Origin: a bacterium
GTDB lineage: Bacteria; Omnitrophota; Gorgyraeia; Zapsychrales; Fredricksoniimonadaceae
Assembly: GCA_021783915.1 (NCBI GenBank)
Contig: JAJXTI010000005.1
Location: forward strand, 1-32,586
Direction: 5' to 3'
DNA: 32,586 nucleotides
Each line of letters starts with the position of its first letter. Position 1 is the stretch's first letter. A model generated the notes under the pieces. It ran no database searches. It saw only the letters and a list, made by a program, of their open reading frames with translations, and was not told the DNA's origin. The position numbers and the translations under genes were made by a program. Positions 1 to 27,876 of this stretch are shown here, piece after piece.

Positions 1-743
1 TCTACGGGCTTCCTTATCAGACACGCGATACTTTTAAAAAAACCGTGGATGCTGTCATTAGCCTTAAACCCGACCGTATTGCCCTGTATAGTTTCGCTTA
101 TGTTCCCTGGATTTCTAAACCGCAAAATAAGTTCAATCTAAGGGCCATCCCTCTTCATGAAGAAAAATTAGATATTTTTGTCCACTCCCGCAACAGCCTG
201 TTAGAAAATGGTTACCAAGCCATTGCCATGGACCATTTTGCTTTGGAAACAGATGAAATGGCCAAAGCTTTTAATGAAGGCAGACTTTACCGTAATTTTA
301 TGGGCTATACCGTCAAACCAGCGGATGAATTCATAGGCATGGGGCCTTCGGCCATTGGTTTTTTGGAAAACACTTTTGTGCAAAACGTTAAAGTGTTGCC
401 TGAATACTATGAAATTATATCTAAAAACCACTTTCCTGTTGAACGCGGTAAGATATTAAGCCAGGATGATATTGTCCGTCAATGGGCCATCAGATGTCTT
501 ATGTGCCAATTTCAGTTGAGCAAACAGGAGTTCTTCAATAAATTCGGGTTTGAATTTGAAGATTATTTTATGCAGGAAGAGGAACATATCCACCATTGTA
601 TTGAGGATGGGCTCATCAAAGAAAACCATGAGATCATTTTTGTGACGGACTTAGGAAGGATTTTTATCCGTAACATATGTATGGGTTTTGACTGGTATTT
701 AAGGCAAAAGGATGCCCATAAACGGTTTTCAAAAACTGTGTAG
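1..743 (+). CDS. hemN: Oxygen-independent coproporphyrinogen III oxidase, C-terminal part (5' end outside window)
   Basis: Frame is open from base 3 (YGLPYQTRDTFKKTVDAV...). Contains 'ALYSFAYVPW' and 'AMDHFALETDEMAKAFNEGRLYRNFMGYT', typical of HemN. Confidence 0.93.
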   Translation, partial: YGLPYQTRDTFKKTVDAVISLKPDRIALYSFAYVPWISKPQNKFNLRAIPLHEEKLDIFVHSRNSLLENGYQAIAMDHFALETDEMAKAFNEGRLYRNFMGYTVKPADEFIGMGPSAIGFLENTFVQNVKVLPEYYEIISKNHFPVERGKILSQDDIVRQWAIRCLMCQFQLSKQEFFNKFGFEFEDYFMQEEEHIHHCIEDGLIKENHEIIFVTDLGRIFIRNICMGFDWYLRQKDAHKRFSKTV

Positions 744-763: not shown

Positions 764-1762
764 ATGAAAAAAGACAAAACCCAGGAAGAAAGCGACTTTT
801 TACTGGCCTTTGAAGGCAAGAACAAGCGCGTGCCTGTGTGGTTCATGCGCCAGGCAGGCAGGTATTTACCCCAGTATCAATCGCTCAAAGCCAACCGCCC
901 TTTAAGGGATCTTTTTCGTGATCCGGAGATTGCGGGGGCCATTACTTTGCAGCCGGTAGAAATTTTAGGCGTCGATGCCGCTATTTTGTTCGCGGACATC
1001 CTCACCATGCCTTCAGCCATGGGTTTTGACATTGACTTTATTGATGGGAAAGGGCCCCTCATAAAAAACCCTATTTATAACGGCACGGATTTAAAACGCT
1101 TGGGTAAATTCAGCGGTCTGGAGCACGTCAACCGCACGATCCAATTGATTAACGCGGTTTTACCCTCATCGATACCGTTGATCGGTTTTGCAGGGTCTCC
1201 TTATACCGTTTTTACATATCTGTGCCATAAGCACAACCGTTTAATGTTCTCTGACCCTAAAAGTTTCCATGCTTTTATGGAACTATTGACCGCGAACACA
1301 ATTGCGTATCTTAAACAACAACAGCAAGCGGGGATCAAGGCGTTTCAGCTTTTTGATACCTGGGCGGGTTCGTTGCGCCATGAAGAATACGAGAAATTTG
1401 TCCTGCCTTATGTGCAAAAGATTTTTAAGTCGGTCAAATTACCTTCGATTTATTTCCTTAAGAATTGTGCGCATTTGATGGGCCTGATGGATAAATGCGG
1501 GGCACAGGTGTTGTCGGTATGCGAGACAGTCAATATCGCGGACATCAAAACAACCAAAGGCATTCAAGGCAATCTTTTAAACAGCTTGCTTTACGCTGAT
1601 GAGAAGACCATTATCGAAGAGACCAGAAAAATCTTAAAAGCTGCCAAGGCCAAACACCGCAAATATATTTTTAATTTAAACCACGGTGTCATGCCGGACG
1701 TTGATCCGATGAAATTAAGACTCATCGTTAAGGAAACGCATAAATTCGCCTGGCGTAAATAA
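764..1762 (+). CDS. hemE: Uroporphyrinogen decarboxylase
   Basis: 'RVPVWFMRQAGRYLPQYQ' and 'GFAGSPYTVFTYL' motifs; strong SD 'gggaggcattaatg'. Confidence 0.96.
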   Translation: MKKDKTQEESDFLLAFEGKNKRVPVWFMRQAGRYLPQYQSLKANRPLRDLFRDPEIAGAITLQPVEILGVDAAILFADILTMPSAMGFDIDFIDGKGPLIKNPIYNGTDLKRLGKFSGLEHVNRTIQLINAVLPSSIPLIGFAGSPYTVFTYLCHKHNRLMFSDPKSFHAFMELLTANTIAYLKQQQQAGIKAFQLFDTWAGSLRHEEYEKFVLPYVQKIFKSVKLPSIYFLKNCAHLMGLMDKCGAQVLSVCETVNIADIKTTKGIQGNLLNSLLYADEKTIIEETRKILKAAKAKHRKYIFNLNHGVMPDVDPMKLRLIVKETHKFAWRK

Positions 1763-1764
1763 AC

Positions 1765-2997
1765 ATGAAACGAATAGCCATCATCGGTGGAGGGATTTCT
1801 GGTTTAGCGGCCCTTCACTATCTCAAGAAACGTTTCGCCCAGAATGTCGATGTCACCCTTTACGAACGCAATCCTTATGTCGGCGGGTGCATTGCGACCT
1901 TGGAAACCCAAGGGTTCCTGTTTGAGACTGGCCCTAATTCCTTTTTGACCAACCAACCCAATACGCTGGAATTTATCGAAGAACTGGGTTTCTCTGACCA
2001 AATGATCGAGGCCAATAAAGATGCCAAGCGCCGTTATATTCAAATCAAAGGGAAATTGCACCTTCTGCCCGCAGGCCCGATAAGCTTTATTAAGACCCCA
2101 CTTTTGTCGACTAAAGATAAATTTCGCCTTATAGGCGGCCTCTTTATCAAAAACATCTCCAAAGACCAAAGTGTTTATGATTACACTTCCCAACGTTTTG
2201 GCGCCGCCGTCACCCAACGGCTGGTCGACCCTTTTTTAACAGGAATCTACGCGGGGGATATCCAACGTCTGCACATGGCTTCAGTTTTTTCAAAGTTGTG
2301 GGCCGCCAAAGGCCAGAAAAAAAAGAAGACCAGACTATGCACATTTAAAAATGGCATGGGAAGTTTTATTAAACATCTGTCTCAACAGCATAAAGCCTGT
2401 ATCCAAACAGGCATTGAAATTGGCAATCTAGAGCAAATCAAGGCAGATATTATTATTTGTTCAACCCCCGCTTATATCACCTCTCGATTGCTTAATATGG
2501 ATGTTCTTAATCGAATTCCTTATGCGCCGGTGGCTGTGGTTGGTTTAGTTGTTAAAAAGAATTCGTTAAAGAATTCACCGGATGGGTTTGGGTATCTGGT
2601 CCCCTCACAGGAAGGCAAAGAGGTCTTGGGTGTCCTTTTAGAAAGCAACGTATTTGTTCGTCAAAATAAAGAAGAAAAAATGTTCATCCGTATCATGTTA
2701 GGAGGGTCCCGCCATCCCGCCATCATCAATGATTCTACGGAAACAATTTTAGCCAAAGCCATGCGGGAAATTGATGAAATTTATGGATTCAATGAACGCC
2801 CTTTAAGTGCCTCTGTCAAATTATGGCCCCGGGGAATTCCCCAATATGAACTCGATTATCCCGTCTTACGCCAAGCCATCAGGGACGATCTTCAAAAGAG
2901 ACCTAATTTATATTTGTGTGCTAATTATCTGGATGGTATTTCATTTAACGACTGCATCAAAAATGCCCGGGAATTAATAGATAGATTGGTTGTCTGA
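1765..2997 (+). CDS. hemY: Protoporphyrinogen oxidase (HemY/HemG, FAD-dependent type)
   Basis: N-terminal 'IAIIGGGISGLAALHYL' FAD motif, 'GGCIATLETQGFLFETGPNSF', 'RLVDPFLTGIYAGD', and a C-terminal 'NYLDGISFNDCI' region; sits in a heme gene cluster. Confidence 0.93.
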   Translation: MKRIAIIGGGISGLAALHYLKKRFAQNVDVTLYERNPYVGGCIATLETQGFLFETGPNSFLTNQPNTLEFIEELGFSDQMIEANKDAKRRYIQIKGKLHLLPAGPISFIKTPLLSTKDKFRLIGGLFIKNISKDQSVYDYTSQRFGAAVTQRLVDPFLTGIYAGDIQRLHMASVFSKLWAAKGQKKKKTRLCTFKNGMGSFIKHLSQQHKACIQTGIEIGNLEQIKADIIICSTPAYITSRLLNMDVLNRIPYAPVAVVGLVVKKNSLKNSPDGFGYLVPSQEGKEVLGVLLESNVFVRQNKEEKMFIRIMLGGSRHPAIINDSTETILAKAMREIDEIYGFNERPLSASVKLWPRGIPQYELDYPVLRQAIRDDLQKRPNLYLCANYLDGISFNDCIKNARELIDRLVV

Positions 2998-3069: not shown

Positions 3070-4251
3070 ATGGTTTGGATAATTTGTATTTTTATTTTGG
3101 TTTTTAGCGGTTGCCAACAAAAAACTTCTGAGCGTCATTATACAGAAGTTGTATTGCAAGCCCCTGACCAACCATTACCCAAAGCCTCTGAAGGTATGGA
3201 TGCCACTGATCCTCACGCGGGGCTAGACATGTCTTCCATGGTCTTGCCGCCGTCCGTTACAACTTCAATGAGCGGTATGTTTTCTTGGACTACACCGCAA
3301 GGCTGGAAACAAGAAGCCGGAAGTGGTATGCGCTTGGCGACTTTCCATCTGGTTTCTGACACAAAGGCCATTGATTGTTCGATAGTTTCTTTAGGGGGCA
3401 TGGCTGGCGGCCTGGAGGCTAATTTGCGCCGTTGGATGGGGCAAATGGGAATTCAAGCCTCCCGGGATGAACTCGCTACCCTTATTAGTTCCGCCTTAAG
3501 CACTAAAATTAAAAGCGGGCAGGAAGCCAAGATTTTTGACTTTACTACCATTCAATCCAAAGCCAAGCCGACAGATAAGAGCATGGTCACAGTCATGGTT
3601 TCCATTGGTGATGTGACCTTGTTTGTGAAAATGACAGGGACTGTTAATACTGTCAAGAAAAACAAAGCCGACTTCTTAAAACTTGTCGAATCTATTGAGT
3701 CCCATATGCCTTCAGGAGATGTTTCCACTGCTGGCAATGATGTGAGCAATCCTCATGCCGGTTTAGACATGTCTGCTATGGCTGGATTCATGGGAGGGGG
3801 AACGGGGAATTCGCAAAACATGCTGGTTTGGGAAAATCCCCAGGGTTGGAAAGAAGAACCAGGCACCCAAATGCGTCTTGCTACTTTCCACATGGCCTCT
3901 GATCCAAAAGCCATAGATTGTTCCATTATATCTTTAGCGGGTTCCGCCGGAGGACTGGAGGCCAATTTGGCCCGTTGGGCAGGACAACTTGGGTTGCAAG
4001 ATTCCCAAGACAATTTAAAACAACTGACCGGTTCAGCCCAAAGCCTTACAACAAAAGGGGGACGGGAAGCCATGGTCTTTGATTTTACGGTTATACAATC
4101 CAAGGCCGCTCCGTCAGATCAAAGCATGATTGCAGCGATGATTGCCATGGGCCAGTCAACTGTTTTTGTAAAAATGACTGGTTCTGTCGAGTCTGTGAAG
4201 CAGAATAAAAATAATTTCTTAAAACTAGTACGCTCCATTTCCCATAAATAA
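3070..4251 (+). CDS. Putative lipoprotein with two tandem copies of a ~180-aa domain, each beginning with [DN]PHAGLDMS[SA]M
   Basis: Hydrophobic N-terminus ending in 'LVFSGC' (lipobox-like). Copies include 'WTTPQGWKQEAGSGMRLATFHLVSDTKAIDCSIVSLGGMAGGLEANLRRWMGQMG' and 'WENPQGWKEEPGTQMRLATFHMASDPKAIDCSIISLAGSAGGLEANLARWAGQLG'. Confidence 0.85.
   Translation: MVWIICIFILVFSGCQQKTSERHYTEVVLQAPDQPLPKASEGMDATDPHAGLDMSSMVLPPSVTTSMSGMFSWTTPQGWKQEAGSGMRLATFHLVSDTKAIDCSIVSLGGMAGGLEANLRRWMGQMGIQASRDELATLISSALSTKIKSGQEAKIFDFTTIQSKAKPTDKSMVTVMVSIGDVTLFVKMTGTVNTVKKNKADFLKLVESIESHMPSGDVSTAGNDVSNPHAGLDMSAMAGFMGGGTGNSQNMLVWENPQGWKEEPGTQMRLATFHMASDPKAIDCSIISLAGSAGGLEANLARWAGQLGLQDSQDNLKQLTGSAQSLTTKGGREAMVFDFTVIQSKAAPSDQSMIAAMIAMGQSTVFVKMTGSVESVKQNKNNFLKLVRSISHK
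3208..4251 (+). repeat. Intragenic tandem domain duplication (units start 3208 and 3748, exactly 540 nt apart)
   Basis: 'gatcctcacgcggggctagacatgtcttccatg' at 3208 and 'aatcctcatgccggtttagacatgtctgctatg' at 3748; protein similarity persists through both units. Confidence 0.9.
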
Positions 4252-4252
4252 T

Positions 4253-5353
4253 ATGATCAAAGCGTTAAGTTCCACCCGTATCACTGTCGTTTGTCTGTTT
4301 TTGCTATTTATCCTTACCTTTTGGGGTACCATCGCTCAAGTCCAACAGGGTTTATATGTGGCGCAAGAACGTTTTTTTAATTCCTTTTTCTTCTTGGCCG
4401 CAGGATTTATACCATTTCCAGGCGCCCAACTGGTCCTTTGGGTCTTATTTATCAATTTAATTTGTATGTTGGTTGCGGATTTCGCTAAATTCCGCCATTT
4501 GTCTAATATTGGCAACCTTATTATTCATTGCGGCCTAATTTTATATTTTGTCGCGGCTTTCATGGTCTTTCAAGTTTCCCAAGAATCTAACGTGCATTTA
4601 AGGGAAGGACAGGGGACCAATGTTTCCACTTCTTACCAGGATTGGGAGGTGGCCTGCTGGACGGATAATTCCGAAAAACACCAGGTAACGGCCTTTGATA
4701 CAAAAAATTTTAAACCTGGTTTCCATGTCCCTTTTAAAAATAAAAATTTTACCCTCACAGTCAAACAATTTTACCCCAACAGTGACGCTTTTAACGCTCC
4801 CGACAATAAAAAGAACCCGATAATCCTTAATGATTCAGGCATTACAATGTTAACGCCTAAACCTGTCCTTAAAGAAAAAGAACGGAACATAGCTGGTGGC
4901 GTCTTTACACTAAAATTCGATGATAAATCTTACACTTTGATTCTCTTCGGGGCCGAAGCCCAACCGACAAAAGTACCCATTGCCGGCAAAACTTATTATT
5001 TTATATTGCGCCATAAACGCTACCAATTGCCATTTACAATCAAACTGGATCATTTCAAAGCTGAATTCTACCCTGGCACGGACATGGCTAAAAGCTATGA
5101 AAGCATGGTCACGATTTCCACAGGTTCATTGCAGCGCCAGGTGCGCATTTACATGAACAACCCTCTAAGGTATAAAGATTACACCGTCTACCAGGCTTCC
5201 TATGATGTGGACAATATGGGAAGGCAATATTCAACATTGGCCGTGGTCAAGAATTTTGCCAGGGTCTTGCCTTACATAGCTTGCTTGGCTGTTTTTCTGG
5301 GGTTGGCTTTGCATTTTCTTATTCAAGCGTTTATTTCAAAGGCCAAAGAATGA
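4253..5353 (+). CDS. resB: ResB-like cytochrome c biogenesis protein (System II)
   Basis: Three N-terminal TM segments and a C-terminal TM around an extracytoplasmic domain; 'NPLRYKDYTVYQASYD' ResB-like motif; directly precedes ccsA. Confidence 0.88.
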   Translation: MIKALSSTRITVVCLFLLFILTFWGTIAQVQQGLYVAQERFFNSFFFLAAGFIPFPGAQLVLWVLFINLICMLVADFAKFRHLSNIGNLIIHCGLILYFVAAFMVFQVSQESNVHLREGQGTNVSTSYQDWEVACWTDNSEKHQVTAFDTKNFKPGFHVPFKNKNFTLTVKQFYPNSDAFNAPDNKKNPIILNDSGITMLTPKPVLKEKERNIAGGVFTLKFDDKSYTLILFGAEAQPTKVPIAGKTYYFILRHKRYQLPFTIKLDHFKAEFYPGTDMAKSYESMVTISTGSLQRQVRIYMNNPLRYKDYTVYQASYDVDNMGRQYSTLAVVKNFARVLPYIACLAVFLGLALHFLIQAFISKAKE

Positions 5354-7206
5354 AAAGAAAAATATTTTTTACCTTAGCCTTAAGTCTGTCTTTTTTGGGT
5401 GTCGCTTTTGCCGATCCAGGGGTCAAGGACTTTAAAAATTTTAAAAGCATTCCGGTGCTTGACGACGGACGCCTGAAGCCTTTAGACACTTACGCCCGTG
5501 GCCTGTTGACCCAATTTTCAGGTAAAGACCATTATGAAAAACAAGAGGCCTCTGCCTGGCTGGCCTCTCTTTTCTTTGACCCTGAATCCACACTCAACGA
5601 TAAAATTTTCTTAATCAATAACCCCGATGTCGCGACAGCCTTGGGGATCACTCCGCAACGGCAGCGTCAATATACTCCCGCTCAATTACAAAAAAGTTAT
5701 CCCAAACTGGCAGAACTCCAAGAGGCAGCAAGAAAAATCCCTGAAAAAGAACGGAGCGTCATCGAGAACGAAATTTTACGCGTCTTCGACAATATTAACC
5801 TTTACGCGGACCTTTCCCGTTCTTTTTTATTTGCCTACCCACAAAATGATTTTACTATCACCTCTCAAACGACCAAAACTCAATTGGGACTGCCATTGGG
5901 GCAAAATCAATTCAGTTTTATCGATCTGGCCCTTAAAGCCAAGAAAATGAGGGAAGCGGCCCAAAACTTAGGAAACAAACCACCCTCTGAATACACACCA
6001 GACGAGACAGAGCTTCTCCAGACGGTGACCAATTTGTTCCGTTGGTCAACGGACTACAAAGATTTCCCTTTTACGGTCATACCATCTAGCCAGGGCGGCA
6101 GGTGGTTAAGCCCATGGGACGCCATAGCGACGGATTTTAGCAATGACCAGACCCGTAAGCTGGTTATGCTTTGGAATAATATGGCCATCAGTTACGTGCA
6201 GGGTAACGACGTGGAGTTTGATGTGGCCGCGCGTTTATATCTTGATACGGTGCGCAATTCACTGTCCCCGGGACAGCTTAAAAAGATGGACAAATTCCCC
6301 TTAGAATTGTTCTACCAGGCCAGCAGCCCTTTTACCTGGGCCATTATGTTTTATATCTGCGCTTTTATTTTCTTTATCATCTCTTTTTCATCCGCGAAAC
6401 CGCTTTGGTACCGTTTAGGGCTGCTGAGCGTCATCGCAGGCTTTGTCCCGCATGTTTTAGGCCTGATTATGCGCATTATCATCATGGCGCGCCCGCCGGT
6501 GTCCAGTCTTTATGAAACTTTCATCTTTGTCGGTTTTATCACCGTTTTTCTTGGGCTTGTAATTGAGCACTACAACAGGCAATGGTTGGGCATTGTCACG
6601 GCGGCCATTAGCGGCACGGCTTTATTGTTTATTGCCAATAAATACAGCGCTGAAGGGGACACCCTTAAGATGCTCATTGCCGTGCTTAATTCTAATTTTT
6701 GGCTTGCAACGCATGTTACAACCATCACCATGGGCTATGGGGCCACATGTGTAGGGGGAGTGCTGGGGCATATTTGGCTTTTACAGGCGGCCTTTGGTCA
6801 GGACAACCAGACCCTGGACAAAACTTTTAAAACAACCCTTGGTATTTTGGGGGTGGCCCTCACCCTGACCTTCCTGGGGACAAATCTCGGAGGTATTTGG
6901 GCCGACCAAAGTTGGGGAAGGTTCTGGGGTTGGGATCCTAAAGAAAATGGGGCCCTCATGATCGTTCTTTGGACAGCACTGCTCTTTCATGCCAAGATTG
7001 CCAAAATGATAGGCCCCCTGGGGCTTGCCATAGGAGCTGTCATCGGTATGATGGTTGTCATGTGGGCCTGGTTTGGTGTCAACCTTCTAAGCGTAGGCCT
7101 CCACTCCTACGGTTTTACCTCTGGGGTTGCTACAAGCTTGATCGTCTATGCTATTTGTGAGATAATCTTTCTAATAGCCATCTCTTGGAGAATCTGTAAA
7201 AAGTAA
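5350..7206 (+). CDS. ccsA: CcsA/ResC-type cytochrome c biogenesis protein with long N-terminal extracytoplasmic region
   Basis: WWD-type motif 'WADQSWGRFWGWDPKENGALMIVLWTALLFHAKI' and 'GVNLLSVGLHSYGF'. Likely start is ATG 5350, overlapping the resB stop (ATGA), not 5281 as in the ORF track; it begins with a signal-peptide-like MKRKIFFTLALSLSFLGVAFA. Confidence 0.93.
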   Translation: MKRKIFFTLALSLSFLGVAFADPGVKDFKNFKSIPVLDDGRLKPLDTYARGLLTQFSGKDHYEKQEASAWLASLFFDPESTLNDKIFLINNPDVATALGITPQRQRQYTPAQLQKSYPKLAELQEAARKIPEKERSVIENEILRVFDNINLYADLSRSFLFAYPQNDFTITSQTTKTQLGLPLGQNQFSFIDLALKAKKMREAAQNLGNKPPSEYTPDETELLQTVTNLFRWSTDYKDFPFTVIPSSQGGRWLSPWDAIATDFSNDQTRKLVMLWNNMAISYVQGNDVEFDVAARLYLDTVRNSLSPGQLKKMDKFPLELFYQASSPFTWAIMFYICAFIFFIISFSSAKPLWYRLGLLSVIAGFVPHVLGLIMRIIIMARPPVSSLYETFIFVGFITVFLGLVIEHYNRQWLGIVTAAISGTALLFIANKYSAEGDTLKMLIAVLNSNFWLATHVTTITMGYGATCVGGVLGHIWLLQAAFGQDNQTLDKTFKTTLGILGVALTLTFLGTNLGGIWADQSWGRFWGWDPKENGALMIVLWTALLFHAKIAKMIGPLGLAIGAVIGMMVVMWAWFGVNLLSVGLHSYGFTSGVATSLIVYAICEIIFLIAISWRICKK

Positions 7207-9420: not shown

Positions 9421-10479
9421 ATGTTAGTTATCGGATTAAACCATAAAACAGCCCCCATAGAAGTACGTGAAAAATTTTTTTTAAACCCCAACCAACAAGA
9501 CCTGTTGCTTTTGGAACTTAAGAACCATCCGCTGGTCAGTGAAGCCTTTGTGCTGTCCACCTGTAACCGCATTGAAATTTACTTAAAAAAAACGGATAAA
9601 GCCATTGACTGCGGTTTTGTGGTTGGTTTAATCGCGAAAGTCAAAAAGACTCCTATTGAGGCCGATCTTAAGCAGCATTTGTACTGCCATGAGGAAAAAG
9701 AAGCCATCGAACACCTTTTAAGGGTGGCTGCCGGATTAGATTCATTGGTCTTGGGGGAAAAACAAATCTTGGGCCAACTCAAGACCTCGGTGGATCGTTC
9801 AAGGGAACTGGGGTTCTTGTCTAAATATTTTAATGTTCTTACTAATATCGCCATTCGAACAGGCAAAAAGGCGCAGACAGAAACAGATATCAGTTACGGA
9901 GGTTCTTCCGTCAGCTGGGCCGCCATCGAGATGGCCCAACAAACCCTGGGGACTTTGGAAGGGAAATCCGTGCTTGTTATCGGTGCCGGTAAGATGGGGA
10001 AGCTGGCTTTAAGCAACTTGCATAACCATTTAGTGTCAAAAATTTATTTAATGAACCGTACGGGTGAAAAAGCAGAAAATTTGGCCCAACAATATGAGGG
10101 CATCGCCGCTTCCTTTTGGGACATTAAAGAAATCTTGTCAGAGGTGGATGTGTGTTTTTGTTCCGTTGGGGCGCCCCACTATATTTTAGACCAGGAAAAA
10201 ATCAGCCAAATCATGAAACTTCGTGAAGGCCGCAGATTAGTGCTTATCGACATTTCCATGCCGCGCAACATTGACCCTGCCGTTGGCCAACTGTCCGGTG
10301 TGCATTTAAGTTCCATTGATGCCCTCGATGGTGTCGTACAGGCCAATATGAAAAAACGTCAGGAAGCCATTGTTCAAGTAGAAGCCATCATCTCCCAAAA
10401 AATGGATGAATTTGTTCAGAAATGGGAGAAACTCCAATCCTTAAATGATTCAGATTTCTTTAAAGCAGCTCAAATTTAA
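9421..10479 (+). CDS. hemA: Glutamyl-tRNA reductase
   Basis: 'MLVIGLNHKTAPIEVREKF', 'VLSTCNRIEIYL', 'LDSLVLGEKQILGQLK', 'VLVIGAGKMGKLA'. Start refined to ATG 9421. Confidence 0.97.
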   Translation: MLVIGLNHKTAPIEVREKFFLNPNQQDLLLLELKNHPLVSEAFVLSTCNRIEIYLKKTDKAIDCGFVVGLIAKVKKTPIEADLKQHLYCHEEKEAIEHLLRVAAGLDSLVLGEKQILGQLKTSVDRSRELGFLSKYFNVLTNIAIRTGKKAQTETDISYGGSSVSWAAIEMAQQTLGTLEGKSVLVIGAGKMGKLALSNLHNHLVSKIYLMNRTGEKAENLAQQYEGIAASFWDIKEILSEVDVCFCSVGAPHYILDQEKISQIMKLREGRRLVLIDISMPRNIDPAVGQLSGVHLSSIDALDGVVQANMKKRQEAIVQVEAIISQKMDEFVQKWEKLQSLNDSDFFKAAQI

Positions 10480-10482
10480 CTT

Positions 10483-11763
10483 ATGTTTTTTCCTTTTATC
10501 AGCATTTCCATTATTTTCCTGGCAGGTTTTTGGGGTGGTATTTATCGTGCCCGTCAGACCAAATTTTCCCCGCAATGGTTCCTAGGATTGCGCATCCCGT
10601 TGTTGGTTTTAATGCTGGTTTTCTTAATGTATCCGGTGGCCTGGTATTGGATCATAGCCCAACTTTTGACTTTATGCTCGGGGCAGACCCTGGGAGGACT
10701 TTTTCAAAAAAATAAACTGACTATCCAAGACATCGAAAAAATAGAGCGTATCGGTGACCTGCAATTGCCCAAACTTTTACCTGAAAAGATCAAAGATGAA
10801 GACATCGCCGTTGTCCTCATGAACATGGGCGGGCCTGTTGACCTTGATGAGGTGGAGCCATTCTTAAGAAGGTTGTTTAACGATTCATTGATCATTCGTT
10901 TTCCTTTTGCCCAATCATTGTTTGCTAACATGTTGGTCCGAGCAAGGCTTAAAGAAGTCAAGGAACGTTATAAGCTTATCGGTGGGGGGAGCCCTCTTTT
11001 GGCCTCTTCACTTCAACAAGTTGGGGCCCTGGACGGCGAACTTAAAAAACGCGGCCGAAAATTGGATCTTTTTTTGTCTTTTAACTACTCTGCCCCCTTG
11101 CCAGAGGGCACAATCGCACAAATAAAACAAAAAGGGAAAAAATTTATTTTACCTTTGAGCCTTTATCCCCATTATTCATTTTCAACCACAGCTTCCAACA
11201 TTTTTTATCTTAAACAGGCATCTCGGGCCAAGCACCCTCAAGCCATTTTTTTGGAAAGTTATTCTTACCATCTTTACGATGGTTACATCCAGGCTTTTGT
11301 GGACCGCATTAAAGAGGCCCTTAAACCAAACGAAGAATTGGATGATTTTTATTTGCTTTTTTCAGCCCACGGCACTCCTTTGTACTTTGTGCAGGAAGGC
11401 GATGCTTACTCATATTTGGTCTCCCAGTCCATCGGCAGTATTTTGGCCAACCTTAAACGTAAGCACAACTGGAGTGTTTGTTATCAAAGTGCGGTTGGGC
11501 CATTGGTGTGGCTAAAACCGTCAACGGAAGCGGCCATTAAGGCTTTGGGGGGGCGCGGGGCCAAAAAAACTATTGTCATACCTATTTCTTTTATCACAGA
11601 CCATATTGAAACGCTCTGTGAAATTGACATTGAATACCGCCATCTGGCCCAAAAGCATGGCATTGAAGATTTTCGTATGAGCAAAGCCATTGAATGCCAT
11701 CCGGGATTTATTTCATCTTTAGCAGATTGCATTGAGGGTTCTTTACGAACGGCAAGATTTTAA
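10483..11763 (+). CDS. hemH: Ferrochelatase with N-terminal multi-TM extension
   Basis: Residues ~1-75 very hydrophobic (MFFPFISISIIFLAGFWGG... LLVLMLVFLMYPVAWYWIIAQLLTL), then 'AVVLMNMGGPVDLDEVEPFLRRLFND', 'GGGSPL', 'LFSAHGTPLYFV', 'YQSAVGPLVWLKP', 'VIPISFITDHIETLCEIDIEY'. Confidence 0.94.
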   Translation: MFFPFISISIIFLAGFWGGIYRARQTKFSPQWFLGLRIPLLVLMLVFLMYPVAWYWIIAQLLTLCSGQTLGGLFQKNKLTIQDIEKIERIGDLQLPKLLPEKIKDEDIAVVLMNMGGPVDLDEVEPFLRRLFNDSLIIRFPFAQSLFANMLVRARLKEVKERYKLIGGGSPLLASSLQQVGALDGELKKRGRKLDLFLSFNYSAPLPEGTIAQIKQKGKKFILPLSLYPHYSFSTTASNIFYLKQASRAKHPQAIFLESYSYHLYDGYIQAFVDRIKEALKPNEELDDFYLLFSAHGTPLYFVQEGDAYSYLVSQSIGSILANLKRKHNWSVCYQSAVGPLVWLKPSTEAAIKALGGRGAKKTIVIPISFITDHIETLCEIDIEYRHLAQKHGIEDFRMSKAIECHPGFISSLADCIEGSLRTARF

Positions 11764-11773
11764 AGGGGGAGCC

Positions 11774-12091
11774 ATGTTAGATAAAATTGTTCTTGCAGCT
11801 TATGGTGTTTTTTTATTGGTGGGAGGATACTTTGGGTTTAAGAAGGGCAGTATGGTCTCTTTGGCCATGGGGACAGGTTCCGGCCTTATAGTTTTCTTAG
11901 GGCTATGGCTCATGACGATTAACCCCGCAGGCGCATGGATTTTTTTAAGCTGTGTTTCAGGTTTTTTGACATCAACATTCCTTCTGAGGACCATCAAGAC
12001 CCAGGCGTTCATGCCATCAGGCATGCTATTAATCATTTCTTTATTGGTCTTGGTTTTTTGTCTGGCCCATTTATCCCAAATTTCGCATTAG
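11774..12091 (+). CDS. TMEM14-family small membrane protein
   Basis: 105 aa, ~4 hydrophobic segments; 'GYFGFKKGSMVSLAMGTGSGL' and 'FMPSGMLLIISLLVLV' resemble TMEM14 'GYxKxGSxxSLxxGxxxGxL' and 'FMPAGLxxxxSLLMV'. SD 'aaggggga' before ATG 11774. Confidence 0.82.
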   Translation: MLDKIVLAAYGVFLLVGGYFGFKKGSMVSLAMGTGSGLIVFLGLWLMTINPAGAWIFLSCVSGFLTSTFLLRTIKTQAFMPSGMLLIISLLVLVFCLAHLSQISH

Positions 12092-12127
12092 GAGATGCAA
12101 TACGAAATTAAGGGATTACCCCCAGGT

Positions 12128-12169
12128 TGATTTAATCCCTGAATTAAAATCTAATAAGGGATTAAATCA
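12128..12169 (+). promoter_or_regulatory. Perfect 13-bp inverted repeat with 16-nt loop (hairpin; possible attenuator/terminator-like element)
   Basis: tgatttaatccct (12128-12140) ... agggattaaatca (12157-12169); a further agggatta at 12111-12118 could compete for pairing with the left arm. Confidence 0.6.
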
Positions 12170-12223
12170 GTGGGCCCCTAGGGTGAATTTTGTAACAGTA
12201 AAATCCTGGTTTAAAATAAAATT

Positions 12224-12382
12224 ATGAACTATTACGCGGCTTTTGGGATCGTATTTTTGTTTTTTGGCGGCCTTTTTTTGGATCAAAAATTCCATACAGG
12301 CTATTTTTGGGCCTTTACCGGTATTGTCCTGGGTATTATCTATGTGATTTATGAGATTTGGAAAAGCATGCATAATCATTAA
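12224..12382 (+). CDS. Small AtpZ/AtpI-like membrane protein (F1Fo ATPase-associated), missing from the supplied ORF track
   Basis: Manual translation: MNYYAAFGIVFLFFGGLFLDQKFHTGYFWAFTGIVLGIIYVIYEIWKSMHNH*. Two TM segments around 'GLFLDQKFHTGYFWAFTGIVLGI', the AtpZ-like pattern; immediately upstream of atpB. Confidence 0.75.
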   Translation: MNYYAAFGIVFLFFGGLFLDQKFHTGYFWAFTGIVLGIIYVIYEIWKSMHNH

Positions 12383-12462: not shown

Positions 12463-13236
12463 ATGAATGAATCTTTTCATACTTTTAAATTAGATCAATA
12501 CATCTTGCACCATGTCATGGATTCTCATGAATGGCATTTACCTTTTGTCCCTCCAATCCATTTGCCTCCGTATCTAAGCGTCCATGGCCTTATGGTCATC
12601 CTGTGCGCGATAATTTTATTGGTCCTTTTCTGTGGGTTTTACCGTAAAGAAGAACGCGTACCTACAGGGTTGACCAATTTATTAGAGGCCTTTGTGCAAT
12701 TTATCAGGGATGAAATCGCCACTCCCTCTTTGGGGGAAGAGGAAGGGGAAAGGTTGACCCCCTTACTATGCACTTTTTTCTTCTTTATTTTAGGGCTTAA
12801 CCTTCTGGGACAAATCCCTTTGTTTGCGGTAGCGACCGCTGATATGAGCGTCACCGCCCCTCTGGCCATGGTCACTTTTTATTTAATGACTGCGGACACC
12901 ATCCGTAAAAATGGGATTGGGGGTTTTATTAAAGCATTCATACCTTCAGGGGTGCCTATTTTCGCCTTGGTTCTTATCGTCCCTCTTGAAATCTTGGGAG
13001 TCTTTATTAAAACATTCGCTTTGATGGTCCGTCTTTTTGCCAACATGCTTGCCGGTCACATGGTCATTTTATCTTTGTTGGGTCTGGTTGTCCTGTTTGG
13101 GATATGGGGGGTATTGGCCGTACCTCTGGCTGTAGGCATATCTCTTTTGGAAATTTTGGTGGTTTTTTTACAAGCATATATTTTTGTGCTTTTGTCGGCC
13201 GTGTTTATCGGCCAAATGTATCATCCGGAACATTAA
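12463..13236 (+). CDS. atpB: F1Fo ATP synthase subunit a
   Basis: 'FALMVRLFANMLAGHMVILSLLGLVVLFG' with the essential Arg, and 'LEILVVFLQAYIFVLLSAVFIGQMYHPEH'. Confidence 0.96.
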   Translation: MNESFHTFKLDQYILHHVMDSHEWHLPFVPPIHLPPYLSVHGLMVILCAIILLVLFCGFYRKEERVPTGLTNLLEAFVQFIRDEIATPSLGEEEGERLTPLLCTFFFFILGLNLLGQIPLFAVATADMSVTAPLAMVTFYLMTADTIRKNGIGGFIKAFIPSGVPIFALVLIVPLEILGVFIKTFALMVRLFANMLAGHMVILSLLGLVVLFGIWGVLAVPLAVGISLLEILVVFLQAYIFVLLSAVFIGQMYHPEH

Positions 13237-24412: not shown

Positions 24413-25240
24413 TTACGCCAAGACCATTTTACGGCGAAGGCCAAATGCCGCGATCCCCATCAACCCTAAGGTAAATAAAGCCAAGGTCATCGGTTCAGGG
24501 ACAGGAACAACACGGTCGACCACATACATCATGTCGTTATAATCCTGGTCGCTGTAGACGCCATTATGGTTTAACTGCTGGTCTTCCCAGGCCAGTAAAT
24601 AAGGATCCTGATAAGTATATTGTTTAAGTTTGAGTGTTTGTGTGTCTTGAATCCAAACGGTCTTCCCCGCTAAGGGAGTTAAATGATAGACCAGCAAGTG
24701 ATCAATGTGGTCCCAGTTACTGGCAGGATTGGAATCCCATACATTGGAAGTATGACCAACGCTATTAAGGCTCCAACCAAATGAAGTCCCTGTCGCAAAA
24801 GGCACCGCGGCCCCGGGAAATGGATGGGTTGATGTGCCGTCACCGACAAAACCAAAACCGGAAAAAGAACCGCCAAAGATATCGACCTTTGTAGCAGGGG
24901 TAGCGGTATTATACACTTCCAGTGTATTGGCGTTTGCCGCGCTTAACCCGACCAAAGCGGCCCCGCCATGATCAGAAGCACCGACATTTTCCCAAACACT
25001 TGTCGGCCCCGTATATTCAAGAGGGTCAACAGCGGCATTACTGCCATAGGACGAGCCCAATAATAAATTAATGGCATTATAAACATCAGGCACATGATTT
25101 GAAGGTGTCCCCGTTTGGTGCGGAGTAGGGATACCTCCCACTCTAGGCAATGAAGCCGTGTAGGGTCCGTTGGCCCAAGCTGCAGTATTCATAGCTGCTA
25201 GCAGCATTACTGCGAAAATGGTTAATAGTATTTTTTTCAT
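24413..25240 (-). CDS. PEP-CTERM sorting-domain protein with DUF4114-like 'DQDYND' segment
   Basis: Signal peptide, C-terminal 'VPEPMTLALFTLGLMGIAAFGLRRKMVLA', 'AWEDQQLNHNGVYSDQDYNDMMYVVD'; SD 'gggggag'. Confidence 0.9.
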   Translation of the reverse strand: MKKILLTIFAVMLLAAMNTAAWANGPYTASLPRVGGIPTPHQTGTPSNHVPDVYNAINLLLGSSYGSNAAVDPLEYTGPTSVWENVGASDHGGAALVGLSAANANTLEVYNTATPATKVDIFGGSFSGFGFVGDGTSTHPFPGAAVPFATGTSFGWSLNSVGHTSNVWDSNPASNWDHIDHLLVYHLTPLAGKTVWIQDTQTLKLKQYTYQDPYLLAWEDQQLNHNGVYSDQDYNDMMYVVDRVVPVPEPMTLALFTLGLMGIAAFGLRRKMVLA

Positions 25241-25291
25241 TCGTCTCCCCCTTGTTTAATTAATCCACATTTGGTTTAGTAATATATTAAA

Positions 25292-26152
25292 TTATTTAGC
25301 TCCTGCTCCTGTAAAAACAACAAGGACAGTCCTTCCTAAAATCGTCAGGTCTGTCCAAAAACACATTTTTTTAATGTAAAGAAGGTCGTATTTGATTTTT
25401 ATACGGACATCATTGATGTTTTCATCATAACGGTGGCACACCTGGGCCAGTCCGGTGATACCGGGTTTGATGTCCAGGCGTTTGGGATAATCAGTGATTT
25501 GCCGCTTGAATTGCTCCACGAACACCGGGCGTTCCGGGCGCGGGCCTATGACGCTCATGTCCCCTTTGATCACATTGATAAATTGCGGGATTTCATCGAT
25601 ATGGGCCTTGCGCATGAATTTCCCGGCAGGGATAAGCCGGTTGTCATTCTTGGCCGCCCACACAGGGCCGGTCTCTTTTTCCGCGTCGACCTTCATGGTG
25701 CGGAATTTGTAAATAAGAAAATGCTTGCCGTTTTTCCCGACCCTGACCTGGGAATAAAAAACCGGACCTTTGGAGGTCGCCTTAATTAAGATGACCGCCA
25801 GAAGCATCAGCGGTGAAAGCGCGACCAGGCCCAGGGCCGCGCAAAAAACATCAATGGCGCGTTTGGCCAAGGCGTAAGTCCTGCGGAAAAAGCTCAAAAG
25901 CATGCTTACCAGTCCGCTGCCGAACAAAGCCAGGCTGGTCGGTTCAGGGATGCTGGATTTGACCGGATGCGCCCCGGAAAAAAGAAAACTCTGGGAAATT
26001 TGGCGGTCACTGTCGTCAGGTTTAATAAATTCCGACGATGACCAGGCCCTGGAAAGAAAAAATACGCACAATGGGCAGGCGAAAAACAGGACAAATAATT
26101 TTCTTTTTGAAAAACGCATATGTTTTTTTGAGTTTGGAGTCTGTGCTGTCAA
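25292..26152 (-). CDS. Undecaprenyl-phosphate sugar phosphotransferase (bacterial sugar transferase family) with N-terminal signal peptide and internal PEP-CTERM-like segment
   Basis: C-terminal 'AKRAIDVFCAALGLVALSPLMLLAVILIKATSKGPVFYSQVRVGKNGKHFLIYKFRTM...MRKAHIDEIPQFINVIKGDMSVIGPRPERPVFV'. N-terminal 'KRKLFVLFFACPLCVFFLSRAWS' then 'SIPEPTSLALFGSGLVSMLLSFFRR'. Confidence 0.92.
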   Translation of the reverse strand: MTAQTPNSKKHMRFSKRKLFVLFFACPLCVFFLSRAWSSSEFIKPDDSDRQISQSFLFSGAHPVKSSIPEPTSLALFGSGLVSMLLSFFRRTYALAKRAIDVFCAALGLVALSPLMLLAVILIKATSKGPVFYSQVRVGKNGKHFLIYKFRTMKVDAEKETGPVWAAKNDNRLIPAGKFMRKAHIDEIPQFINVIKGDMSVIGPRPERPVFVEQFKRQITDYPKRLDIKPGITGLAQVCHRYDENINDVRIKIKYDLLYIKKMCFWTDLTILGRTVLVVFTGAGAK

Positions 26153-27042: not shown

Positions 27043-27876
27043 TTATTCAAGGGTCTTTCCAACGGTATAAAGCAACAGGAACGCGCAGGCGAAAACGATA
27101 AACCCGGAAAGCTCGTGCAGGGGCCCCGAGGCGTAATGGGACCCCCAAATTTCATTGACAGCAGCCAGAAAAATGATCCGCACGACATTGGCCATGACCG
27201 CAATCGGGACAGAAAACAGGAACAAAATGATTTTATTGGCCCTTGAGGACTTCATCCAGTAGGCGAAAAGGCTCCCTAAGGCCATCAAGGCAATCAACGA
27301 ACGCAGCCCGCTGCAGACATCATCCACCACCACATAGGCGTGGCGCATGATGATCGCGCTGCCGTCCTGGATGCACACGATCCGCATATTGTTCAACAGG
27401 ACCACGGCCATATGGGCGGCGAACATTTTCAATTTAAAACTGATGTTGGCCACGAGTACCAGGGGCAGGGGCACCATAAAGGCCAAAAAGGACAACGGAA
27501 ACAGGATCTCTTTGAGCGTTTTTGTCCCATAAAAATACAAGGCCAGTCCGAACAGGACAATAATAAGGGAAAACCCGGAGGTAAAATATACCCTGAAAAA
27601 AGCGCTCAAGAGGTGGACCCCAATGCCTAAAAAAAACAGCCTCATCCCCCATTTTGAAGGTTGCGGCTTGATCGCTTTTAAAACATCTTTTTTCAGCCAG
27701 ATCAAATACAGCGTGACAAAGGGGACCAGGATACCGTGGCTGTAATAGGAGTCACGGGCGAACCAACGCTCCCACATCCATATAAAAGTAGGCAGATAGA
27801 TGAGCAGAATGAATGCACCGGCAATGGCCACTTGGTGGGATTTTTTTATGGGTCCTGCTGCCTGGCTTTTTGCCAT
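27043..27876 (-). CDS. xrt: Exosortase
   Basis: Polytopic; catalytic-type motifs 'VDDVCSGLRSL' (Cys), 'MANVVRI' (Arg), 'LHELSGF' (His). Confidence 0.93.
   Translation of the reverse strand: MAKSQAAGPIKKSHQVAIAGAFILLIYLPTFIWMWERWFARDSYYSHGILVPFVTLYLIWLKKDVLKAIKPQPSKWGMRLFFLGIGVHLLSAFFRVYFTSGFSLIIVLFGLALYFYGTKTLKEILFPLSFLAFMVPLPLVLVANISFKLKMFAAHMAVVLLNNMRIVCIQDGSAIIMRHAYVVVDDVCSGLRSLIALMALGSLFAYWMKSSRANKIILFLFSVPIAVMANVVRIIFLAAVNEIWGSHYASGPLHELSGFIVFACAFLLLYTVGKTLE

Follow-up and report, generated by a model that had tools for sequence, protein, structure and literature searches.

A TMEM14-family gene in the terminal heme operon of an order of Omnitrophota

Introduction

In a genome of the Omnitrophota (order Zapsychrales; contig JAJXTI010000005.1, of which a stretch of 32,586 nt, hereafter the window, was analysed), a gene for a small membrane protein lies directly behind the ferrochelatase gene hemH. 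This raises the question of whether a bacterial member of the TMEM14 family takes part in heme synthesis and, if so, how far its role corresponds to that of human TMEM14C, which red-cell mitochondria need for making heme. An earlier note on this DNA had proposed that the protein moves or channels porphyrin between a membrane protoporphyrinogen oxidase (PPO) and a membrane-fused ferrochelatase, and that the eukaryotic role might thus have bacterial roots.

In bacteria, HemY and HemH both act at the cytoplasmic side. In mitochondria, protoporphyrinogen IX (PPgenIX) arises outside the matrix and cannot enter it without TMEM14C (PMC4673221, PMC9272004), whose presumed task is import from the intermembrane space. 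TMEM14C and FECH also co-purify with PPOX in mitochondria, as reviewed in PMC9272004. Direct porphyrin transport by TMEM14C is undemonstrated, its mechanism and substrate being uncharacterised (PMC9272004, PMC7511413), and deletion of a TMEM14-type gene in Toxoplasma left porphyrin levels unchanged (PMC7511413). A search of open-access papers turned up no mention of a bacterial TMEM14 gene within a heme operon, and we found no earlier description of the order-specific heme-operon setting of this known family that is reported here.

The TMEM14 protein and its gene block

The 105-aa product of the ORF, whose ATG is preceded by a good ribosome-binding site, AAGGGGGAG, is a TMEM14-family protein, as the earlier note had claimed: the Pfam search matched Tmemb_14 with E = 3.7e-15 and 56.8 bits against a gathering cut-off of 24.8 bits, placing residues 8-95 on profile positions 3-91 of 92. 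A phmmer search against the PDB matched human TMEM14C (2los) over residues 10-93 at 2.1e-6 and TMEM14A (2loo) at 0.15. The protein also has the length (about 100 aa) and the four hydrophobic helices of the family, which an AlphaFold2 model built with 24 relatives (mean pLDDT 81, pTM 0.66) predicts at residues 2-23, 27-49, 51-76 and 82-104. A Foldseek search of this moderate model against the PDB, where the TMEM14 references are human NMR models, gave no match at E<=0.001, and TMEM14 entries were absent among the matches listed; family membership therefore rests on sequence.

The ORF is the only Tmemb_14 gene in its genome, and the family was absent from all 14 named control genomes. The protein is 78% and 70% identical to the copies of two close relatives, with dN/dS values below 1 (0.15-0.49 depending on the method, one value being saturated), so the gene is under purifying selection. 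Residues invariant in the TMEM14 group of the order concentrate in two loops, one following helix 1 and one preceding helix 4, and the conserved loops are basic and glycine-rich (GxKxGSxxSL and RxxKTxxFMPSG).

As had been claimed, the TMEM14 gene starts 10 nt past the ferrochelatase stop (hemH ends at 11763, TMEM14 begins at 11774), and all five genes of the proposed heme cluster, hemN, hemE, hemY, hemA and hemH, were confirmed by NCBIfam, hemN by its 3' part only (Table 1). ResB/CcsB-type cytochrome c genes and moeA/mobA are interspersed in this cluster. The heme block continues into an ATP synthase operon (atpZ at 12224, atpB at 12463), on which the earlier note was silent, and behind the atp operon lie fabF and acpP, named by eye from sequence.

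Table 1. Features of the heme block and the start of the ATP synthase operon in the window
Feature	Coordinates	Strand	Evidence
hemN (oxygen-independent coproporphyrinogen III oxidase), 3' part, truncated at the start of the window	45..743	+	TIGR00538, 243 bits, profile 226-454 of 454
hemE, uroporphyrinogen decarboxylase	764..1762	+	TIGR01464, 318 bits
hemY, protoporphyrinogen oxidase	1765..2997	+	TIGR00562, 240 bits, cut-off 97.85
ResB-like cytochrome c biogenesis protein	4253..5353	+	PF05140
CcsB/ResC-like cytochrome c assembly protein (frame coordinates)	5353..7206	+	PF01578, 77 bits; TIGR03144 below cut-off
hemA, glutamyl-tRNA reductase	9421..10479	+	TIGR01035, 363 bits
hemH, ferrochelatase with N-terminal hydrophobic domain of ~100 residues	10483..11763	+	PF00762, residues 108-418; N-terminal profile A4
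TMEM14-family (Tmemb_14) protein, 105 aa	11774..12091	+	PF03647, 56.8 bits; PDB 2los, 2e-6; AF2 four helices
TMEM14-atpZ intergenic stretch, 132 nt	12092..12223		strong stem-loop
atpZ-like small ATP synthase accessory protein	12224..12382	+	PF09527, 26.9 bits, cut-off 26.6
atpB, first main gene of the following F-ATPase operon	12463..13236	+	PF00119, 184 bits

Between TMEM14 and atpZ, a long inverted repeat (TGATTTAATCCCT ... AGGGATTAAATCA) occupies 12126-12172, and the surrounding 131 nt have an RNA folding z-score of -3.7. The stem-loop is not conserved: in most relatives the two genes nearly abut, and the spacers are too short to hold it. A terminator that splits the heme and atp units was considered and rejected, since the + strand has no U-tract and most relatives lack the spacer.

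Several further genes of the window are recorded here as observations. Upstream of resB, the frame at 3070-4251 encodes a hypothetical lipoprotein-like protein whose two halves resemble each other in tandem (DPHAGLDMS / NPHAGLDMS) and which matches no significant Pfam family and occupies the same position in several relatives. At 24413-26152, a PEP-CTERM-like protein adjoins a sugar transferase with a PEP-CTERM-like stretch of its own near the N-terminus, and an exosortase-like gene follows further on at 27043-27876.

Linkage and co-occurrence with heme genes in the order

The order was sampled with 83 Omnitrophota genomes, 25 of which carry TMEM14, and the neighbourhoods of all 25 loci were read. 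At 24 of them, spread over six families, a heme gene is the closest one upstream on the same strand: window-type hemH at 16 loci, hemA at seven, and at one a second-type (E. coli-type) hemH at a distance of 547 nt. The sole exception is a copy that lies among other genes (G329). On the other side, the direct neighbour is atpZ or atpB at 16 of the 25 loci, and the remaining downstream neighbours are mostly a 564-aa cation antiporter-like ORF, with a permease-like ORF and others. The heme side of TMEM14 is therefore the more constant one. At one locus (L021), the genes after hemH-TMEM14 were judged by eye to resemble those for cytochrome bc, and atpB is found on a different contig.

The locus has also lost or exchanged its parts. 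In six genomes (G266, G272, G296, G297, G307 and G308), hemH is gone and TMEM14 directly follows hemA; a ferrochelatase was found elsewhere in four of these six, and it was of the second type in both cases inspected. Three loci (L038, L041, L043) kept hemH and lost TMEM14, so that hemH directly precedes the atp genes, and in a member of the genus of the window (G302, counted as hemH+) both genes are gone from an otherwise intact locus. TMEM14 is therefore neither essential for heme synthesis nor tied to one ferrochelatase type.

Across the genomes of the order, hemH is present in 23 of the 25 with TMEM14 and in 16 of the 58 without it (Fisher p = 3.5e-8, shared descent ignored), and the two that have TMEM14 and no detected hemH are 70% and 51% complete. 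Counted by genus, the corresponding figures are 19/19 and 6/28. The association persists among the 62 atpB+ genomes (p = 6e-6, again with shared descent ignored); all 25 TMEM14+ genomes have atpB, as do 37 genomes without TMEM14. In two inspected genomes without hemH, the F-ATPase is a more distant one. Since heme, respiratory and ATPase genes change together, co-occurrence cannot separate heme from respiration. In the lineage of the window, TMEM14 is genetically associated with heme synthesis. The 16 relatives that have hemH and lack TMEM14, one of them G302, show that it is dispensable and at most accessory.

Ferrochelatase and PPO types

The ferrochelatase of the window is indeed fused to a hydrophobic domain, as the earlier note had described, but the fusion does not track TMEM14. 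This domain (10483-10800) has the consensus FLVNIPxGYIRENxPKFSLxWxFWIHASIPLI, has no Pfam match, and is fused to hemH in our sample only in the order of the window. In other Omnitrophota, several of them without ferrochelatase, its profile matches short frames of about 85-250 codons, and in one genome (G197) it is a separate 95-aa ORF apart from the replaced hemH. A membrane-anchored ferrochelatase as the partner of TMEM14 was rejected, because TMEM14 is found with both short and extended hemH, judged by frame lengths, and extended hemH is also found without TMEM14.

The ferrochelatase of the order alternates between two distant types with about 24-26% identity (L022/L032 with L045/L046; L155, L157, L160), the second, E. 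coli-like type often lying outside the heme block and replacing the in-locus hemH. Dependence of TMEM14 on the window-type enzyme was likewise rejected, because TMEM14 keeps its place next to hemA in genomes with an unlinked, second-type hemH. The type of PPO does not determine the presence of TMEM14 either: HemJ exceeded its cut-off in only one of the 83 genomes, and among hemH+ genomes HemY did not separate those with TMEM14 from those without (p = 0.23).

TMEM14 outside the order

Other phyla were scanned in GTDB species genomes with the pattern [RKH][KQH]FMP[SA]GM, as the two TMEM14 classes together gave a profile too diverse for scanning genomes. The pattern misses class B-like members (see below), so this survey is biased toward MPSG/MPAG forms. 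In the flanks of all 69 loci obtained (Cyanobacteria, Obscuribacterales, Verrucomicrobia and others; median locus 19 kb), hemA, hemE, hemH, hemY and hemN were absent, and the flank queries detected ferrochelatase in 5/5 positive controls from the scanned phyla. In a sample of 190 genomes of a verrucomicrobial class, each at least 85% complete, TMEM14 exceeded the cut-off in 60 and ferrochelatase was present in 76; both occurred together in 26, against 24 expected (p = 0.53), and 34 genomes had TMEM14 without a detected ferrochelatase. Within the rest of the Omnitrophota, TMEM14 was found in eight sampled genomes, four of which lack ferrochelatase. The linkage beyond this genome on which the earlier note made its proposal depend is found in 24 of 25 loci within the order, together with co-occurrence, but in none of the 69 loci from other phyla, and co-occurrence is missing from the verrucomicrobial sample. 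Taken across bacteria, TMEM14 is therefore not a heme family.

The Tmemb_14 proteins of Cyanobacteria, Obscuribacterales, Verrucomicrobia and class B, a second TMEM14 type of Omnitrophota (L024, L026, L027, L030, L033), share domain and length with the protein of the window and have similar first-loop and MP motifs, whereas they have no heme-gene neighbours. Four of the class B members (L024, L026, L027, L030) carry GYVKAKSxASL and, where the group of the window has MPSG, MPD or MPE; they lie near ORFs that by eye resemble MFS transporters, in two cases with a DUF2231-like ORF close by as well, and ferrochelatase was undetected in their genomes. Verrucomicrobial copies often have a large ATP-dependent helicase, HrpB-like by eye, downstream on the same strand (L094, L101, L103, L128, L130, L137, L145, L148, L151, L153). 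Four Obscuribacterales copies (L082, L096, L100, L110) are upstream of succinate dehydrogenase / fumarate reductase-like genes.

Relation to human TMEM14C

The protein of the window has in common with human TMEM14C, a protein of the inner mitochondrial membrane, the Tmemb_14 domain, a glycine-rich first loop ending in S-x-x-S-L and an MP(A/S)G motif. They differ in that the bacterium needs no crossing of PPgenIX between compartments. As HemY and HemH work on one side, with no membrane between them, the mitochondrial transport role transfers badly to bacteria, leaving escort, scaffolding, channelling or heme export as the roles that would make sense there. The PPO/ferrochelatase gene context of the window does parallel the mitochondrial complex of PPOX, FECH and TMEM14C (PMC9272004). 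Of the proposal that the protein moves or channels porphyrin in a heme operon, a role in terminal heme synthesis is plausible within the order, given the 24 of 25 loci and the co-occurrence.

The further step to bacterial roots of the eukaryotic role is unsupported, as bacterial TMEM14 genes are linked to heme only exceptionally (0/69 loci outside the order; p = 0.53 in Verrucomicrobia). A profile comparison with human TMEM14C gave 49.3 bits for the group of the order and 50.0 bits for that of Obscuribacterales, whose TMEM14 genes lack heme linkage. In a tree of 71 sequences, the two human TMEM14 proteins are nominally placed among the heme-linked group, with a support of just 62/2 for the joining branch and too few columns (105). 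A heme role in common with human TMEM14C is possible; its antiquity is neither shown nor excluded.

Alternative functions

The main rival to porphyrin or heme handling is a lipid role like that of the plant FAX proteins, in which TMEM14 would move or flip free fatty acids or other lipid and the block would serve membrane bioenergetics together with lipid supply. Genetic evidence supports fatty-acid export by plant FAX1, itself a member of Tmemb_14 (PMC4344464), and the plant and algal FAX1-FAX7 have the Pfam domain and the four-helix layout in common with the protein of the window (PMC4344464, PMC9470853). Compared by description only, the plant proteins differ from it in their extra N-terminal parts, organelle targeting and lipid function, and FAX1-FAX7 are not reported to adjoin heme genes. 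Family members that lack heme linkage are common in bacteria, and in Verrucomicrobia their presence does not depend on that of ferrochelatase, so the basic activity of the family is unlikely to be heme-specific, and fabF and acpP behind the atp operon of the window would also suit a lipid function. However, the neighbours of TMEM14 in the order are heme genes (24/25 loci) and not lipid genes, none of which were recognised among the immediate neighbours at the 25 loci, and all but two of the genomes without hemH lack TMEM14 although they need fatty acids too. We regard a lipid role as unlikely, yet as the best placed of the alternatives.

Less probable still is that TMEM14 is a passenger with a general membrane function unrelated to its neighbours, its association with heme being the product of shared descent and whole-block deletion. 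The synteny moeA-mobA-hemA-hemH-TMEM14-atp is conserved, so that adjacency is not independent between genomes, and the family-wide absence of heme linkage points the same way; on the other hand, tight spacing, mostly below 40 nt, has been kept across six families despite hemH swaps and rearrangement on the atp side, which suggests selection.

We consider it quite improbable that TMEM14 is a helper of F-ATPase or respiratory-complex assembly, positioned like AtpI/AtpZ, because, despite the 16 loci with atpZ or atpB directly downstream, the presence of atpB in all TMEM14+ genomes and the succinate dehydrogenase-like neighbours in four Obscuribacterales loci, 37 atpB+ genomes lack it, it follows hemH among atpB+ genomes, and the atp side is interrupted by other genes in several loci where the heme side is fixed.

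Proposed role

We tentatively favour, at somewhat less than even confidence, an accessory and dispensable role for TMEM14 in the terminal heme operon of the order (hemA-hemH-TMEM14), handling porphyrin(ogen) or heme at the membrane. The gene was probably inherited from the ancestor of the order and then repeatedly lost, usually along with the heme pathway. In such a role, TMEM14 would sit in the inner membrane as a small four-helix protein, with its conserved loops GxKxGSxxSL and RxxKTxxFMPSG turned to the cytoplasm, the workplace of HemY and HemH; both loops lie on the same side in a four-helix topology and carry basic residues, which by the positive-inside rule suggests the cytoplasmic side. 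It may bind or escort an amphipathic anion, most likely protoporphyrin(ogen), on its way from HemY to ferrochelatase, or, alternatively, new heme leaving ferrochelatase for the cytochrome c machinery. It would thereby raise efficiency or limit porphyrin leakage and would not be an obligatory transporter. The role that might carry over from mitochondria is that of a partner in the membrane by which an amphipathic tetrapyrrole is held or passed on.

A more specific and rather doubtful version, to which we give about the same weight as the lipid role, would make TMEM14 part of a complex HemY-TMEM14-HemH, bound to the membrane and devoted to terminal heme synthesis, in which protoporphyrin(ogen) or heme is escorted; TMEM14 would then be the functional equivalent of TMEM14C, whether ancestral to it or independently recruited. 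If true, it would offer a simple system for measuring the unproven biochemical activity of TMEM14C. Tied to ferrochelatase in gene position as well as in evolution, the bacterial TMEM14 homolog offers a small, expressible system for finding out what the family binds. Most bacterial TMEM14s examined here have no tie to heme, so that labelling them porphyrin transporters would be wrong; the heme role, if real, would be a specialised one within a broader family to which fatty-acid exporters also belong.
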